Shown: positions 212 to 64,000 of the stretch, piece after piece | Layout: every line of letters starts with the position of its first letter | Position numbering within the stretch: position 1 is the first letter of the stretch | NCBI GenBank assembly: GCA_946407895.1 | Contig: CAMJQA010000003.1 | Location: 40,295 to 104,294 of the forward strand | DNA: 64,000 nt | Direction of reading: 5' to 3' | From: an uncultured Prevotellaceae bacterium | GTDB taxonomy: Bacteria; Bacteroidota; Bacteroidia; Bacteroidales; Bacteroidaceae | Notes under the pieces: model-generated | The model's input: only the letters and a program-made list of their open reading frames with translations | Told to the model about the DNA's origin: nothing | Database searches by the model: none | Program-made: the position numbers and the translations under genes

Positions 212-469
212 AGACCCTCCCCCCGCCCTCCCTTGTAGGGAGGGAGTATAATGCTTTGTAAGGCAGGACGGTAGCACGGCGCCAGCCATTCCCCGCCCCT
301 TTGAGGGGAGGGGCAGGGGTGGGGTAAACAGGCAGAAGAGAGGGTAAACAGGCAGCTATACAATAAAAATAATTTGAATGCCCCAATGCCTACCCCACCC
401 CTACCCCTCCCCTCAGAGGGGCGGGGAATGGCTGGCGCCTTGTTTACCCCTAGAGCCCAGCCAAAAGAA

Positions 470-519
470 GGAGGCGCCAGCCCATGGACGGAGGCGCCAG
501 CCCATGGACGGAGGCGCCA
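470..519. repeat. 20-bp direct repeat (ggaggcgccagcccatggac), 2.5 copies
   Basis: ggaggcgcca at 470, 490 and 510. Confidence 0.85.
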
Positions 520-525
520 TGAATA

Positions 526-555
526 GAAAAAGCGAGGCTGCGGCCTCGCTTTTTC
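526..555 (-). terminator. Rho-independent-type terminator
   Basis: GAAAAAGCGAGGC-TGCG-GCCTCGCTTTTTC perfect hairpin downstream of the minus-strand DUF6261 gene. Confidence 0.8.
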
Positions 556-682
556 GTTTCACTCCCCTCCTCTCGGGAGGGGCGGGGGGAGGGTCTTTCC
601 CCCCCCTCATTTCTATTCCACAACGACTGCCTTACAAAGCATTATACTCCCCTCCCTACAAGGGAGGGGCGGGGGGAGGGTC

Positions 683-1594
683 CTACTCCATGCCGTCGCC
701 GGCGTCGGGGTCGGGGTCGGAGCTGCCGCCGCCGGAACCCTCAGAATCGCCGGGGTTCTCCGGATTACTCGGAGTATTCTGATTATTCTGAGTATTCTGG
801 TTATTCTGATTATTCTGATTATTCTGGATGCCGCTGCTTGCGCCGCCCTTGCCCTGGGTGAAGACGTTCTTCAGGTAGTAGTCCTGGTCCTGGTTGATGC
901 GGGCGATGGCCTGGTCGTAGTGCGACGAGCCGTCGGCCCAGTCGGCGACGGCGAGGGCGTTGATGATGGTCACTACGAGGGCGTAGGCATCGTCGCTGGC
1001 GGCGCGGGCCTGGAGCATGGCCTGGGGGGTGACCTGGGACAGGTCGTTATTGCGCAGGTCGATAAGGTGCTTTATCTGCTGGTTCAGGCTGACGAGCTCG
1101 CCGACGGTGGCGGTCAGCCCGAGGGTCTCGATGCGGGCCGTCCAGGCCGGGGTCTGCAGCTCCTGCAAGAGTTGCGACATCTTGGTGGTCTCGTCGTCGT
1201 AGCGCTCGGAGATGTCCACCTTGTAGTGTGCGCAAAGGTCGATGAGCTGCCCTGCGGCCTGCTGCTGTTCGGCGGAGCCGATGCGGTGCAGGGCGTCGGC
1301 CATCGACTTCAGGCCGACGTACTTCGAGTCGCGCTCTTCGTCTAACGCTGCTATCTGCGGCGTCAGTTCGCTCTTTGAGATGATCAGGTAGCATTCGTCC
1401 TCGTGTGCCGCTGCGGCCTGGAACTGTGTTATGGCCTGACTGAGGAGCGCCGGGACGCTGGCGCCCAGCTGCTCGATGATTTCCGTCTGCAGGCGCCCGC
1501 CGACCTGCTTTATCCAGGAGAGGTGGCGTGTGTTGGACTGGCGCATCACTTCATACGCGAATGCATTGATTTGTTTGAATACGTTGATAGTCAT
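683..1594 (-). CDS. DUF6261 family protein with Asn/Gln- and Gly-rich tail ending DAGDGME
   Basis: 303-aa ORF; MTINVFKQINAFAYEVMRQSNTRHLSWIKQVGGRLQTEII...; tail NNQNNQ...GGGSSDPDPDAGDGME. Confidence 0.75.
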   Translation of the reverse strand: MTINVFKQINAFAYEVMRQSNTRHLSWIKQVGGRLQTEIIEQLGASVPALLSQAITQFQAAAAHEDECYLIISKSELTPQIAALDEERDSKYVGLKSMADALHRIGSAEQQQAAGQLIDLCAHYKVDISERYDDETTKMSQLLQELQTPAWTARIETLGLTATVGELVSLNQQIKHLIDLRNNDLSQVTPQAMLQARAASDDAYALVVTIINALAVADWADGSSHYDQAIARINQDQDYYLKNVFTQGKGGASSGIQNNQNNQNNQNTQNNQNTPSNPENPGDSEGSGGGSSDPDPDAGDGME

Positions 1595-1637
1595 AGTTTT
1601 CTGATTTATTTTAATTTTGAAACTCTCTGTCAGCTAT

Positions 1638-1888
1638 GTGGTCGCCACAAGGTCGTCCCGACGCCGTCTGCAGGGGTTTGTGGTCGCCACAAGGTCGCCC
1701 CGGCCTCGTCTGCAAGGGTTTGTGGTCGCCACAAGGTCGTCCCGGCGCCGTCTGCAGGGGTTTGTGGTCGCCACAAGGTCGCCCCGGCCTCGTCTGCAGG
1801 GGTTTGTGGTCGCCACAAGGTCGCCCGGCCTCGTCTGCAGGGGTTTGTGGTCGCCACAAGGTCTCCCCGACGCCGTCTGCAAGAGTTG
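1638..1888. repeat. Six-copy 42-bp tandem array
   Basis: gtggtcgccac starts at 1638, 1680, 1722, 1764, 1806, 1847 (one unit lost 1 bp); each unit contains the 15-nt palindrome TTGTGG-TCG-CCACAA. Confidence 0.95.
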
Positions 1889-2027
1889 GGCACCCCGCCG
1901 AGGCCCTTCGACCCTGTTCCCGGTTCTGTTTCGGTTAAACATATAGTGAATTGTTCTCGTTATTTTATGGTGTGACTTTCTTTTTCATTGTCTTAATTAT
2001 ATCAGGTTCCCGTCCGAACGCGAAGGT

Positions 2028-3641
2028 TTATGGCGTGACGGAGTATTCCTCCACATTCCAGAAGCTGGGGATGCCCTTATCGCCGTCTTCGTTGTCGTCT
2101 CTGGGCCATTTGGTTCCCGGGGCCGTGTAGAAAGTAGGCTTCTCTCTGGAAGTTGGATTGCCAGCGCCGTGCAGCATAGTGATATCGAAAATATCAATAT
2201 TCTCCGTGGCGAGGCAAATCACACTCTTCAGGCTGGTGCAGTTTGAGAACATGAAATCATAGCAAGACGGCATCAGGCTCGTGGCGGGCAGCAGGGGTCC
2301 TTGCTCAAGACTGCTGCAGCCACGGAACATATCCTTATAGCAATATTCCGTCAATTTGGTGGCAGGCAGGGCGGGCGCCACGGTCAGCTTCTCGCAGCCA
2401 GAGAACATGGAGAGATAGCAGTCGCTTCTCAGCGTCGTGGCGGGCAGCAGGAAGGGGCGCGCGGCATCGATATCGATATGCTCGTTGTCCTTGAACAAGT
2501 CTAGGAAAGTTTGATCTGCCGTCAGTTCCTTCAACACGGGGAATGACAAGGCGTCGATAAGGCTCATCACGTTGCCGTAGAGGTAGCAGTCGTCGGTGCA
2601 GGAGATGGTAGATTCGTAATACTTGGCGTTCGTGCCGCGGAAGCTCACCTTGTCGCCCGTGGCGGGGAGGGTGATTTCCGTCTCGCTGGTGTAAGCACTC
2701 CATGCGCCCCACGCGCCGGTTAGACAGGTGCGGTACTCAACGGGGCCGGTGACGTCGTCCGAGAGATTGAACGACACCACGGCGCCGGCCTTACTGGCCT
2801 CGAGCGTCAGGGGCATGGCGTGGTAGCCGGTGGCGGCGGGCGTGGTTACGCTGATGGGATAGATGTTGTTCGCGGCGAGCGCCTTGCCCGTGACGCTCTT
2901 CTCGTAGTATTGCTCGCCGTCGTAGGGCATCAGCTTGATGGTCTGATCCGTGCGGACGGGATAGAGGGCCACCCATATCTCGCTCGCCGAGGACGGGGTA
3001 ACGCTGTAGGTGTGGTCGCCGACCTCAATCAGGAGTTTCCGGAGCGAGGCGGTGATGTCGGCGGAACCGTCGCTGAAGGTGAACTTGGCCAGGGCGAGCT
3101 GGTTCTCTAGGTCCAGGGCGGGCAGGGCCGGCGAGCCGCCGCTGTAGTCGATGTAGCCCGTTGCCTCGGCGTAGTCGAACTTTTCGGCGAGCTTGGCAAG
3201 GGAGCCGTCCTGCTCGTTCTCGAGGATAGAGGCTCGGTCGTATTCACTCTTCAGGTTCGCAGGATAGACGTAGCGGACGGCGGTCTTGCCGTCGTTGGGG
3301 TTGGTGAGCGTCACGGTGAACGTGGCCGTCTTGCCTGCGTCGGTGATGTCGGCCGCCGTGAGCGGCTCGCTCGTGACCGTCTCGTAGCCCCACCATTTGT
3401 CATCCTTATAGAACAACACGGCGATCTGGTCGCCCACGGCGAAGGTCTTCACGCCCGCTTCGGTTAGCGCGCGGGTCTCGCCGCCGCCGTCGAAGGTCAG
3501 CGTGGTGGTCAGGGTGTAGGCAGTCGTGCTCTCGGGCTGCATGCCGCCGGGGACGGGTCCGTCGTCGCCCGAGCAGGCCGTCATGGCGGCGCCGGTCAGG
3601 GCCAGGGCAGCCATCGTCATCATATGTCTGAACTGTTTCAT
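2028..3641 (-). CDS. Fimbrillin-like lipoprotein with C-terminal BspA-type leucine-rich-repeat-like region
   Basis: Lipobox signal peptide MKQFRHMMTMAALALTGAAMTACS; fimbrillin-like N-terminus; C-terminal repeats CYLSMFSGCEKLTVAPALPATKLTEYCYKDMFRGCSSLEQGPLLPATSL. Confidence 0.75.
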   Translation of the reverse strand: MKQFRHMMTMAALALTGAAMTACSGDDGPVPGGMQPESTTAYTLTTTLTFDGGGETRALTEAGVKTFAVGDQIAVLFYKDDKWWGYETVTSEPLTAADITDAGKTATFTVTLTNPNDGKTAVRYVYPANLKSEYDRASILENEQDGSLAKLAEKFDYAEATGYIDYSGGSPALPALDLENQLALAKFTFSDGSADITASLRKLLIEVGDHTYSVTPSSASEIWVALYPVRTDQTIKLMPYDGEQYYEKSVTGKALAANNIYPISVTTPAATGYHAMPLTLEASKAGAVVSFNLSDDVTGPVEYRTCLTGAWGAWSAYTSETEITLPATGDKVSFRGTNAKYYESTISCTDDCYLYGNVMSLIDALSFPVLKELTADQTFLDLFKDNEHIDIDAARPFLLPATTLRSDCYLSMFSGCEKLTVAPALPATKLTEYCYKDMFRGCSSLEQGPLLPATSLMPSCYDFMFSNCTSLKSVICLATENIDIFDITMLHGAGNPTSREKPTFYTAPGTKWPRDDNEDGDKGIPSFWNVEEYSVTP

Positions 3642-3661
3642 AGCTTCATCGTGTTTAAGGG

Positions 3662-3808
3662 TTACCAATCCTGCGACGGATTCATGTTGTAGTTCTGCAC
3701 TCCGCCGCGGCCTCTCTGGCTCGCCTGCATCATCTGCGATGCCTGCTGCAGCTCCACGACCCTCGTGCGGGGCCGCTCGTAGGTTCTCAAGTTCTTCTTA
3801 TGCTTCAT
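3662..3808 (-). CDS. 48-aa small protein with YERPRTRVVELQ motif (not in ORF track)
   Basis: ATG...TAA frame read by eye: MKHKKNLRTYERPRTRVVELQQASQMMQASQRGRGGVQNYNMNPSQDW; directly upstream of the lipoprotein; paralogous to the ORF at 38046. Confidence 0.75.
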   Translation of the reverse strand: MKHKKNLRTYERPRTRVVELQQASQMMQASQRGRGGVQNYNMNPSQDW

Positions 3809-17710: not shown

Positions 17711-17785
17711 TTACTCCATGCCGTCGCCGGCATCGGGGGACGGGTCGGCTGACGCCGCTGCCAAGTCAGGCGGGCGCACGCCTCA
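17711..17785 (-). pseudogene. Orphan 3' end of a gene encoding ...ADPSPDAGDGME*
   Basis: In-frame GVRPPDLAAASADPSPDAGDGME followed by TAA and preceded by in-frame TGA (17783-17785); shares GCCGGCGACGGCATGGA with the ends of the 683 and 40540 genes. Confidence 0.65.
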
Positions 17786-29559: not shown

Positions 29560-29744
29560 ATTTGCTCTTGCGGGCTCCTTTTTTATCTTTTCCTATTCAA
29601 ATATACAACTCTTTCGGGAAATTATATCGCTCCGGGGCAACTTTTTTTCGTTGCCGGCCCCTATTTCATTTATTTATTCGTACCTCGGAGAGCACCGCTC
29701 GAAGGCTGTTTCGCTCGGATAAGCAAAAATAAAACTGCTTTTAT

Positions 29745-29775
29745 TTTGTTTATCCCTCGCTTAATCGTACCTTTG
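29745..29775 (+). promoter_or_regulatory. Upstream copy of the lysS promoter
   Basis: TTTG-N19-TACCTTTG. Confidence 0.75.
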
Positions 29776-29831
29776 AGACTGTCGCTCGAAGGTACTTTCG
29801 CTCGGATAAGCAAAAATAAAATTGCTTTTAT

Positions 29832-29862
29832 TTTGTTTATCCCTCGCTTAATCGTACCTTTG
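29832..29862 (+). promoter_or_regulatory. Proximal lysS promoter
   Basis: TTTG-N19-TACCTTTG, 28 bp before the ATG. Confidence 0.85.
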
Positions 29863-34139: not shown

Positions 34140-34375
34140 GGCGACCGGTCAGACCGGACGAGCCCGGAAAGCGTTGCGGGACACTTCCGGTCAGACCGGA
34201 CGACCCCGGAAAGCGTTGCGGAGCACTTCCGGTCAGACCGGACGACCCCAGAAAGCGTTGCGGAGCACTTCCGGTCAGACCGGATGAGCCCGGAAAGCGT
34301 TGCGGAGCATTTCCGGTCAGACCCGACGAGCCCGGAAAGCGTTGCGGAGCACTTCCGGTCAGACCCGACGGGTTC
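34140..34375. repeat. 42-bp tandem array, about 5.5 copies
   Basis: gcgttgcgg at 34171, 34213, 34255, 34297, 34339; units contain the 15-nt palindrome TCCGGTC-A-GACCGGA, degraded in the last copies. Confidence 0.95.
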
Positions 34376-37859: not shown

Positions 37860-38045
37860 GCATTTTACTTATTTAATACAGAGGACGGCCGCTGCGGCCA
37901 CTACGCTGTGCGATTCATTCAGTCCCTCCCCCTGCCTGCCCTACGCGGACGGCAGGAGGAGCTGTGCGCGTATATATATATATAATAATGTATAGGAACA
38001 CGTATAATCAACCTTATAAGTTTAATCATCTAAATCTTATTAGTT

Positions 38046-38201
38046 ATGGAGAAAAAAAGCAAGAAGTTGAGTGTTAAACAGCAGTATGAGGCTCCGCTGA
38101 CGAGAGTCGTCAGACTGCAGAGCGAGAGAATGCTGGCACAGAGCGGCGGTTTGGGCCAGCCGAGTCCGTATCCCACGCAGCCCGACCCGCTCGGATTCTA
38201 A
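38046..38201 (+). CDS. 51-aa small protein with YEAPLTRVVRLQ motif (not in ORF track)
   Basis: MEKKSKKLSVKQQYEAPLTRVVRLQSERMLAQSGGLGQPSPYPTQPDPLGF, ATG 38046 to TAA 38199-38201. Confidence 0.8.
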   Translation: MEKKSKKLSVKQQYEAPLTRVVRLQSERMLAQSGGLGQPSPYPTQPDPLGF

Positions 38202-38246
38202 GTAACCGCAGTGTATAACCCATTAACAAAAGAAAGGAGAAAGACA

Positions 38247-39713
38247 ATGAAGACAACACGTATTCTCAGTCTGGCTGCGCTGGCCCTCATGATGGCCGCA
38301 TGCAGCAACGATAACGAGCTGGTTCCCCAGCAGCCCGAAAAGTCAGAGGGCATACCCTTCACCGCCACCATCAGCGGCGAGAGCATCACACGCGCACTGA
38401 ACGAAGTCAGCGGATCGCTGCAAGGCACATGGGAGGTAGGCGAAAAGGTAGCACTTTGCTATACGGTCGGCTCAGATAAATACTGTGATAAAGCCGAGGT
38501 GAAGAGCGTAGACGGCTCGGGCACAGCTACCATCGACGCCACACTTGAGAAGACCCCCTCCGACGGCGACCCCGTGACCATCATCTATCCCTACACCGCT
38601 GCTGTCAAAGAAACAGCCGACGTGAAAAACTTCGGGAATGAAAATCAGGACGGCACACTGGCCTACATCAGCACGAACTGCGATGTGCGCAAGGGCACGG
38701 GCACTTTCAGCGTTTCCGGCGGCAAGGCTACGCTGAAGAGCGACGTCACGCTCGAGAACCAGTTCTGCATCTTCAAGATGACACTGAAGGACATCGACGG
38801 CACGAACGACCTGTCGGTCAATATCTTTGAGGTTTACGACGAGGAGAACAATCGAATTGGCTTAGTTTTCAATTCTTCAACATACAGCACATGCTATATC
38901 GCCCTGCCGACCACCAGCAGCACGCTGAAGTTCAGGGCAATTAATCAAACTACCGATAAGCAATGGTGCAACAAGAAGTCGGGGCTGACACTCGGCAAGA
39001 ATTACTACCAATCAACCTTGAAGCTGGCCGCCGTCGGCGACGTCATCCTCACGGACGGCAGTTTTGCCAAGGCTGGCACGTCGGGTGCAGCAGCCATGAT
39101 ATTCTTCATAGAGCCTGGCTTTAAGGCCATGTCCATTCCTAATGCCGATACGAGCGGTAACTGGTTTGGTTTGGCCATCGCACTGGAGGATGTGACCGGC
39201 GGTCCATACATGTGGAGTAATGTAAATGAGACAGTCAGCGGCGTGTCAACCTCAACCGTTATTGGTGAACAATTTGGATTTATGACAGGCATCGCAAACA
39301 CGGCTGCCCTCTTAGATCCCATGATTGATCCTTCTACTGACCACGCCGCCGCCAAGGCTGTTGAAGGCTACAGCGTCTATGGCTTCAACCCGACTACCTG
39401 CGGGTTCAGCAATTGGTTCCTGCCCAGCACAATGCAGTTAGTATATTGTATCACTGTATCATCTTCAACGAAAATGCCTGATACCTGGAACACGTATCCT
39501 ACAGGAGGCGGAGCCGACGTCACGGAATTGAACGCTATGCTGAATGCAGCTGGCGGCGCAAAGGCTGAATTTGAAGCAGTAGACTACTGGACGAGCTGCC
39601 AATACGATGAGGATGAAGCCGTGTCCGTGGCCTTCAGCCCCTCGGAAGGTGCTATGGTCAGCCATACGCTGAAGGCGGGTACCGCCAACGTCCGTCCGTT
39701 CATCGCATTCTGA
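38247..39713 (+). CDS. Fimbrillin-like lipoprotein with C-terminal DUF1566/Lcl-like domain
   Basis: MKTTRILSLAALALMMAACSN lipobox; C-term NWFLPSTMQLVYC...YWTSCQYDEDEAVSVAFSPSEGAMVSHTLKAGTANVRPFIAF. Confidence 0.75.
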   Translation: MKTTRILSLAALALMMAACSNDNELVPQQPEKSEGIPFTATISGESITRALNEVSGSLQGTWEVGEKVALCYTVGSDKYCDKAEVKSVDGSGTATIDATLEKTPSDGDPVTIIYPYTAAVKETADVKNFGNENQDGTLAYISTNCDVRKGTGTFSVSGGKATLKSDVTLENQFCIFKMTLKDIDGTNDLSVNIFEVYDEENNRIGLVFNSSTYSTCYIALPTTSSTLKFRAINQTTDKQWCNKKSGLTLGKNYYQSTLKLAAVGDVILTDGSFAKAGTSGAAAMIFFIEPGFKAMSIPNADTSGNWFGLAIALEDVTGGPYMWSNVNETVSGVSTSTVIGEQFGFMTGIANTAALLDPMIDPSTDHAAAKAVEGYSVYGFNPTTCGFSNWFLPSTMQLVYCITVSSSTKMPDTWNTYPTGGGADVTELNAMLNAAGGAKAEFEAVDYWTSCQYDEDEAVSVAFSPSEGAMVSHTLKAGTANVRPFIAF

Positions 39714-39726
39714 TAAGCTCAGCCAT

Positions 39727-39775
39727 CGGGGACTCTCGGCGTCTGGAAACAGGGCGCCGGAGTTCCCGTTTTTTT
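39727..39775 (+). terminator. Terminator after cassette B lipoprotein
   Basis: CGGGGACTCTCGGCG...CGCCGGAGTTCCCG followed by TTTTTTT. Confidence 0.8.
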
Positions 39776-39801
39776 GACCCGAAATGAACGTGGAAAAAGA
39801 A

Positions 39802-40021
39802 GTTGCGCCTCAGTTTCAGAAAAGTTGCGCCTCAGTTTCAGAAAAGTTGCGCGTCAGTTGCAAGAAAGTTGCGCCTCAGTTTCAGAAAAGTTGCGCCTCA
39901 GTTGAGTAAAAGTTGCGCCTCAGTTGAGTAAAAGTTGCGCGTCAGTTGCAAGAAAGTTGCGCGTCAGTTGAGCAAAAGTTGCGCGTCAACCGATTAAAAG
40001 TTGCGCGTGAGTTAAAAATAA
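39802..40021. repeat. 22-bp tandem array, 10 copies
   Basis: gttgcgc at 39802, 39824, 39846, 39868, 39890, 39912, 39934, 39956, 39978, 40000: exact 22-bp period. Confidence 0.97.
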
Positions 40022-40039
40022 CACAAAAAACATTATTTT

Positions 40040-40540
40040 ATGAGTACATTAAAATTGAAAGCGTCGAGGGTGAGCAATGTGAATCCTGTGACGAAACAGA
40101 AAGGACTGACCGTCCGAGTATTAACTAACGGAACTGCCGATTTTGACAGCATCGTGACATCGGCCGGCAAGAACACCACCATGCACAGGGCGGAGCTCCG
40201 CATGGCCTTCGAACTCTGCCTCGACTCGGTGGCCGATGCACTGAAGGAGGGCATGATTGTCGACCTTGGCCCCATCGGCAAGATCTATCCGAGCTGCACT
40301 TCGAAGTGGTACGAAAAGGCCGAGGACATGAAGCTCAGCGACGTCCATCCCGGGCTTTACTTCCGTGCAGGGGAAGAGGTGGAGAGTGCCATCAGAGCCG
40401 CCAAGATTGTCTGGGCAAAGCCCGGCGACGGCGAGGAGGAGGAAGAAGAAGGCGGTACCACCACCGAGCCGGGTACTACGGACAATCCGACTAATCCGGG
40501 CGGCGGCAGCAACGACGATGCCGGCGACGGCATGGAATAA
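40040..40540 (+). CDS. HU family DNA-binding protein (HU-HIG type) with acidic/Gly-rich tail ending DAGDGME
   Basis: KASRVSNVNPVTKQKGLTVRVLTNGTADFDSIVTSAGKNTTMHRAELRMAFELCLDSVADALKEGMIVDLGPIGKIYPS; tail NPGGGSNDDAGDGME. Confidence 0.8.
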   Translation: MSTLKLKASRVSNVNPVTKQKGLTVRVLTNGTADFDSIVTSAGKNTTMHRAELRMAFELCLDSVADALKEGMIVDLGPIGKIYPSCTSKWYEKAEDMKLSDVHPGLYFRAGEEVESAIRAAKIVWAKPGDGEEEEEEGGTTTEPGTTDNPTNPGGGSNDDAGDGME

Positions 40541-63646: not shown

Positions 63647-63667
63647 TTTGTCGTAGGATAGTCCCTG

Positions 63668-64000
63668 CACGCTGCAGGAGCTTTCCCGAAGGCTTCGGAT
63701 GGGCCAAGCACGCTGCAGGAGCTTTCCCGAACGCTTCGGATTGGCCTTGCACGCTGCAGGAGCATTTCCGAAGGCTTCGGATGGGCCTTGCACGCTGCAG
63801 GAGCATTTCCGAAGGCTTCGGATTGGCCTTGCACGCTGCAGGAGCTTCCCGAACGCTTCAGAATGGCCCTGCGCTCTGCAGGAGCATTTCCGAAGGCTTC
63901 GGATTGGCCTTGCACGCTGCAGGGGCATTCCGAAGGCTTCGGATTGGCCTTGCACGCTGCAGGAGCATTTCCGAAGGCTTCGGATTGGCCTTGCACGCTG
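63668..64000. repeat. 41-bp tandem array, at least 8 full copies, running off the window
   Basis: cacgctgcagg-type starts at 63668, 63709, 63750, 63791, 63832, 63872, 63913, 63953, 63994; units contain the 15-nt palindrome TCCGAAG-G-CTTCGGA. Confidence 0.95.

Follow-up and report, generated by a model that had tools for sequence, protein, structure and literature searches.

Tandem arrays adjoining DUF6261 and HU-HIG genes of Bacteroidales: candidate cassettes of a private array and a nucleoprotein gene

Introduction

Why do a DUF6261 gene and an HU-HIG gene, members of unrelated families, each follow a short-repeat array within the same piece of a Prevotellaceae chromosome, and which of the surrounding parts belong together? 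The two genes lie in a 64,000-nucleotide stretch of DNA (the window) that is part of contig C3 of the draft genome G000 (3.57 Mb, 121 contigs), referred to here as the home genome. An initial annotation described, at two places called copy A and copy B, a cassette of four parts: a small peptide, a fimbrillin-like lipoprotein, a tandem array and a gene ending in DAGDGME. All four parts of both copies are present where it had placed them, as seen in the list of open reading frames (ORFs) and with Tandem Repeats Finder (TRF) and Pfam. The results indicate that the array and the gene behind it are the unit. The preferred explanation, to which we assign a probability of about 0.55, is that the gene encodes a nucleoprotein that binds its own array, autoregulates and acts in trans. 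The arrays and genes of the two copies are:

1637-1881, minus strand: copy A tandem array, 42-bp unit in 5.9 copies with 91% matches (TRF)
683-1594, minus strand: copy A DUF6261 gene, 303 aa, PF19775 at E=1e-29 (Pfam), ending in DPDPDAGDGME
39793-40013, plus strand: copy B tandem array, 22-bp unit in 9.7 copies (TRF)
40040-40540, plus strand: copy B HU-HIG gene, 166 aa, PF18291 at E=2e-12 (Pfam), ending in NDDAGDGME

Arrays tied to genes

DUF6261 and HU-HIG genes of gut and sediment Bacteroidales adjoin private short-repeat arrays. Sixty named DUF6261 loci were fetched by protein similarity and 56 were scorable, the fundamental period being determined within 500 bp upstream of the gene. An upstream array with a period of 41-42 bp is present at 41 of the 56 loci and at 0 of 106 control upstream regions, taken from other genes of these loci (Fisher p=4e-26). 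A second set of loci, partly overlapping the first, gave 20-21 of 29. The home genome has eight DUF6261 matches and approximately 20 HU-family matches. All eight DUF6261 genes have an upstream array of 41-43 bp, that on contig C59 with 2.1 copies only and that on C37 396 bp away, and 10 of 19 HU-HIG genes have an array of 21-23 bp. Across the genus, 20 of 42 HU-HIG genes have an array, compared to 1 of 24 controls. Contigs were scanned for DUF6261 with a closer subset of sequences, the broad alignment being too divergent. The arrays are direct tandem repeats on the 5' side of the gene, not on both sides, and are private: 8 of 9 paralogs in genome G400 and 7 of 9 in G197 have one, each with a different unit. 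A search of open-licence literature, in which DUF6261 appears in one unrelated paper and HU-HIG in one, found no account of arrays beside these genes.

The periods of the arrays keep step with the helical turns of DNA. Of 35 tandem-repeat periods in 400 kb of G197, sampled at even steps, 31 lie no more than 2.2 bp from a multiple of 20.9, and ~21 bp corresponds to two helical turns. Inverted-repeat arms of at least 6 occur in 26 of 41 units, compared to 7.5% of shuffles, and arms of at least 5 in 9 of 22 of the 22-bp units, compared to 8%. Each unit of the copy A array contains the dyad TTGTGG-cga-CCACAA.

Paralogs and arrays have also diverged together. All pairwise combinations of 70 gene-array loci were compared, with unit similarity judged against a 99% null. 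Units are similar in 22 of 24 pairs at protein identity of at least 70%, in 16 of 44 pairs at 50-70% and in ~1-3% of pairs below 40% (null 1%). Some orthologues, such as L096 and L176, keep half of the unit; the palindromic half is altered in sequence and still palindromic. Divergence of paralogs along with their arrays suggests that each protein works on its own sites.

Similar arrays also occur apart from the genes. The initial annotation listed the array as one part of the cassette; two arrays of similar period in the window lack a partner gene:

34145-34370: orphan 42-bp array in 5.4 copies, between glucose-6-phosphate isomerase-like and HAD-like genes (TRF)
63666-64000: orphan 41-bp array, extending into the contig end (TRF)

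The first is related to the array at C17:6390-6630 (78%) and the second to the array at the start of contig C56 (96%). The copy A array itself has orphan copies at the end of C17 (94% identity) and the start of C33 (98% identity), and orphan and gene-linked arrays of G197 share units (L096 matches L369, and L098 matches L374). Arrays are frequent at contig ends, so an orphan array located there may have neighbours beyond the end of the contig. In the 400 kb of G197 there are 18 arrays of the 42-bp class, or 45 per Mb. Arrays of G400, which has fewer gene copies, are mostly gene-linked with few others, indicating that array density is uneven among genomes with DUF6261.

It is scarcely credible that the arrays are passive minisatellites, with multiples of ~21 bp resulting from replication or repair bias and the arrays acting at most as slippage switches. 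Copy number does differ among loci and arrays without a gene do occur, as such an origin would allow, but the position of the arrays is strongly tied to one gene family, and dyads and co-divergence are unexpected for neutral repeats. Moreover, 400 kb of G307, which belongs to the same family but lacks DUF6261, contains no arrays of the 42-bp class.

Proposed function of the array and its protein

The copy A protein matches PF19775 with 103.9 bits (gathering cut-off 27), and the copy B protein matches PF18291 with 47.6 bits (gathering cut-off 26.2) and contains an HU-type DNA-binding domain. The AlphaFold model of the copy A protein is all-helical over residues 1-253, followed by a disordered linker and the GDGME tail. 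A confident all-helical prediction was also obtained for the DUF6261 protein of L194 (mean pLDDT 94). Weak partial matches of DUF6261 to Avd-like four-helix proteins (probability 0.63) were not relied on.

We propose a unit in which a tandem array precedes the gene of a small nucleoprotein, of the all-helical DUF6261 family or of HU-HIG with its HU fold. The inverted repeats of each array are most likely the binding sites of the protein encoded next to it. Units spaced by approximately two helical turns (21-23 bp, HU-HIG) or four (41-43 bp, DUF6261) would place many copies on one face of the helix. Proteins aligned in this manner may form a filament or bridged complex, which would autoregulate the gene. 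Copies of the same array that lack the gene would allow the protein to act in trans, on chromosome structure or on expression. Array and gene are swapped as a block at fixed chromosomal sites.

Several observations weigh against this proposal. About one quarter of DUF6261 genes and half of HU-HIG genes have no array by TRF, which overlooks degenerate arrays. The 22-bp unit of copy B has no clear dyad. The helical domain of DUF6261 has a mean pI of 5.5, an acidity that sets it apart from general DNA-coating proteins, and sequence and fold searches with DUF6261 gave no significant match among PDB or viral structures. Simple linkage of array and gene could explain part of the co-divergence. Finally, the Bacteroidales -7 promoter motif TAnnTTTG is enriched before arrays (15 vs 2.4 expected, mostly 60-110 bp upstream). 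The arrays may therefore be transcribed, making an RNA role possible, and the distance from array to start codon is 27-45 bp in several cases, which leaves little room for a promoter in between. Both features would suit an array that serves as a transcribed leader, with RNA hairpins in the 5' untranslated region controlling translation or stability downstream and orphan arrays functioning as RNA elements of other genes. Such a role is nonetheless distinctly unlikely. There is no excess of G-U over A-C mismatches in the dyads (22 vs 16) and almost no compensatory change, orphan arrays occur in both orientations relative to flanking genes, and 15 of 42 arrays lie between convergent genes.

Exchange of array and gene as a block

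Array and gene have been exchanged as one block at three sites between close relatives. The comparison is with G427, a relative with six DUF6261 matches, none nearer than ~53% identity to those of the home genome. Most genomes used here are draft metagenome assemblies, and the estimated contamination of G427 is 5%. The blocks and the remaining parts of the two copies are:

596-1965, minus strand: copy A exchanged block, array and DUF6261 gene; G427 locus L286 has another array and another DUF6261 (blastn breakpoints, alignments)
37955-40499, plus strand: copy B block, replaced in G427 (L287) (blastn)
3662-3808, minus strand: copy A peptide ORF, 48 aa, YxxPxxxVVxLQ family, containing YERPRTRVVELQ (ORF list)
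2028-3641, minus strand: copy A fimbrillin-like lipoprotein, lipobox TACS, C-terminal BspA/PARCEL-type repeats (ORF list, profiles)
~526-555, minus strand: copy A terminator-like GC hairpin followed by T's (sequence)
38046-38201, plus strand: copy B peptide ORF, 51 aa, containing YEAPLTRVVRLQ (ORF list)
38247-39713, plus strand: copy B fimbrillin-like lipoprotein (ORF list, profile)

The alignment of the copy A site with L286 extends over 3.9 kb (window 5877-1965) at 94% and covers the upstream gene, the peptide and the lipoprotein. Homology breaks before the array and returns at window 596, in the terminator region. Misassembly is unlikely to be the cause of this exchange, because the two arrays differ in sequence, neither locus spans a contig break and homology returns in order beyond the block. 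At the copy B site the flanks are 81-83% identical. In place of the peptide, the lipoprotein and the HU-HIG gene with its 22-bp array, G427 has a 41-bp array and a DUF6261 pseudogene, whose coding tail still aligns with that of HU-HIG over the final 40 bp. The third site (C112 in the home genome, C16 in G427) shares the peptide and a conserved leader of ~75 bp up to the array. Past the leader, array and gene differ, but a 63-bp stretch of linker DNA is 95% identical. This noncoding leader, just 5' of the array (L107:4449-4530 and L285:4020-4104), is near-identical in the two species, while the adjacent peptide, array and gene differ.

Block exchange at three sites would also be compatible with a selfish cassette of the kind formed by repetitive extragenic palindromes (REPs) and REP-associated tyrosine transposases (RAYTs), in which the protein or a trans-acting partner spreads the array, and array and gene together are a mobile element. 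RAYTs are relatives of IS200/IS605 transposases, and two inverted REPs flank them (PMC2817692). As in the cassettes, a gene is accompanied by palindromic repeats of its own, cognate copies of which are dispersed in intergenic DNA (PMC2817692). The likeness extends to fast co-divergence of protein and repeat, and to repeat numbers that track the presence of the gene. Dispersed copies of the same unit, a patchy distribution (45 of 392 Bacteroidales genomes) and internally deleted remnants on C43 (array and tail) and C100 (array, N-terminal piece and tail) are further points in its favour. We nevertheless consider a selfish cassette unlikely. DUF6261 and HU-HIG proteins have no transposase or integrase domain, matches above the Pfam cut-off being to DUF6261 or HU-type families only. 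Terminal inverted repeats and target-site duplications, as expected of miniature inverted-repeat transposable elements (MITEs), are not visible at the aligned junctions, and no empty site free of the cassette was found. The swaps affect the same sites and not new ones, and two peptide patterns found no relative in viral contigs; a phage origin was rejected on the same result. PADLOC gave no match to an anti-phage defence system at E 0.1. The proteins also differ from RAYTs: they are all-helical or HU-like, and neither a nuclease domain nor, by Pfam, a Y1/HuH transposase was found. The repeats differ in forming one helically phased tandem array on the 5' side only.

A genome-specific tail

The initial annotation regarded the C-terminal tail as a mark of the four-part cassette. 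Instead, GDGME followed by a stop codon occurs genome-wide, 24 times in the home genome compared to 0 for the reversed control pattern: in 7 DUF6261 genes, 11 HU-HIG genes, 1 gene of a third family (409 aa) and 5 remnant-like places. Beside C43 and C100, the remnants comprise C25 (array and tail), C15 (HU start and tail) and a bare tail in the window:

17711-17728, minus strand: tail remnant PDAGDGME-stop without gene body (tail pattern search, L126)

Two proteins of the home genome end otherwise, one on C4 in DDGME and one DUF6261 protein (C112) in NEME. In G427 there are no GDGME tails and 14 tails of the form D[N/D]GME, mostly DDPDNGME. Tails of the D[N/D/G]GME type are absent from five other genomes of the genus, searched with this second pattern. 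The change of tail between the home genome and G427 thus spans unrelated protein families. Such a concerted change could stem from a common partner or from gene conversion. Because it affects unrelated families in two close relatives, a common partner is predicted, for which the acidic linker and tail are probably the docking point.

The third tailed family comprises proteins of 409-421 aa with the genome-specific tail and an upstream 22-bp array (L167:3405-4634 on C29, L294 on C4 and L305 in G427). The 409-aa protein has no Pfam match.

The peptide-lipoprotein pair

A further question is whether the peptide and the lipoprotein belong to the unit, as the initial annotation supposed. The peptide motif has 12 matches in the home genome compared to 0 for the control. 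Two matches on C9 and one on C47 were discarded as antisense to long ORFs, leaving 9 plausible peptide ORFs, which adjoin fimbrillin-like or BspA-like surface genes. The proposed co-occurrence beyond chance is borne out: 5 of the 9 have a DUF6261 or HU-HIG gene within ~3.5 kb, against an expectation of ~0.5. The four-part order is likewise real at three loci of the home genome (copies A and B, and L104 on contig C17), but it is not the basic or an obligate unit. On C112 (L107), the array follows the peptide with no lipoprotein between them. On C8 and C110 the peptide lies 3' of secreted BspA-like genes without a partner gene.

The copy A peptide has an intact orthologue in G427, with an omega of 0.64. 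The copy A lipoprotein (window 2028-3641 against L286:2237-3850) has an omega of 1.32, reaching ~2 in two C-terminal parts, and the gene upstream of the pair 0.07. The lipoprotein values suggest that this surface protein is under diversifying or relaxed selection. The name fimbrillin-like holds in a restricted sense: the Mfa1 fimbrillin model NF038041 matches only the N-terminal part of the two lipoproteins, weakly, at 21.1 and 18.9 bits against a cut-off of 130. The C-terminus of the copy A lipoprotein (window 2028-2560) consists of BspA/PARCEL-type repeats of 26 aa with a weak match to TIGR02167.

The neighbourhood counts and the fast lipoprotein beside a conserved gene would fit a co-regulated four-part system of surface variation, in which the array gene possibly regulates the diversifying lipoprotein. 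This was the initial proposal, and it now appears highly unlikely. The majority of DUF6261 and HU-HIG genes have no neighbouring peptide or lipoprotein, and on C45 (L109) the HU-HIG gene faces a peptide-lipoprotein pair and has its own array on the far side. At copy A, the peptide and lipoprotein have stayed in G427 while array and gene were swapped, which argues that array and gene are the unit. Peptide and lipoprotein form a separate, far less widespread unit that often adjoins it. Taken with the omega of the lipoprotein, the counts indicate that array-gene cassettes lie preferentially, not obligately, beside fast-evolving surface genes.

Comparison with known systems

Other repeat systems share single features with these cassettes. 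On the F plasmid, sopC (parS-F), which is bound by SopB, consists of twelve 43-bp tandem repeats with ten 16-bp inverted repeats (PMC6238139). In geometry, the 41-43-bp direct repeats described here, with their dyads, come close to this centromere. In contrast to sopC/SopB, many paralogous pairs occur per genome, and neither DUF6261 nor HU-HIG is ParB by profile. Inspection of gene sequences at the examined loci, made without a profile scan, recognised no ParA, ParM or TubZ beside chromosomal arrays.

BrickBuilt MITEs of Porphyromonas gingivalis have 23-nt tandem repeats, conserved leader and tail segments and terminal inverted repeats (PMC4596501). They too are intergenic tandem repeats in Bacteroidales, but they form a single repeat family, whereas the unit sequence here is private to each gene and no such ends were seen. 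According to a table in that paper, BrickBuilt_14 adjoins a PF00216 DNA-binding protein gene (PMC4596501); this pair may be a relative of the HU-HIG genes with 22-bp arrays. The copy B protein is a member of Pfam PF18291 (HU-HIG), the description of which is silent on upstream arrays and a genome-specific tail.

No known kind of system fits the features tested. At slightly less than even odds, we put forward tentatively that they represent Bacteroidales-wide private-array nucleoproteins. Two unrelated families would have converged on a phased array with paralog-specific dyads and dispersed cognate arrays, would share a genome-specific C-terminal tag and would swap as cassettes at fixed sites, giving each strain its own combinations of array and protein.

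DUF6261, and HU-HIG beyond its DNA-binding fold, gain a concrete target for functional study in the neighbouring array. Otherwise unexplained minisatellites of Bacteroidales, several of which apparently break assemblies at contig ends, become linked to specific proteins. If the proteins do bind their arrays, one bacterial order would hold a large set of protein-array pairs, in which natural swaps separate site, array, protein body and tail, a resource for chromosome biology and as a toolkit.

Other repeats

Two further repeats were observed. A dispersed tandem repeat of 84-87 bp containing TTATTCGTACCTTTGA is found at window 29696-29862, L112:7125-7282 and L166:5485-5768, and the TTATTCGTACCTTTGA within it resembles the -7 region of Bacteroidales promoters. 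A GC-rich repeat, CCCTCCCTTGTAGGGAGGG, lies at window 378-650 and 3' of many tailed genes, in G427 as well, and looks like a separate dispersed palindromic repeat.

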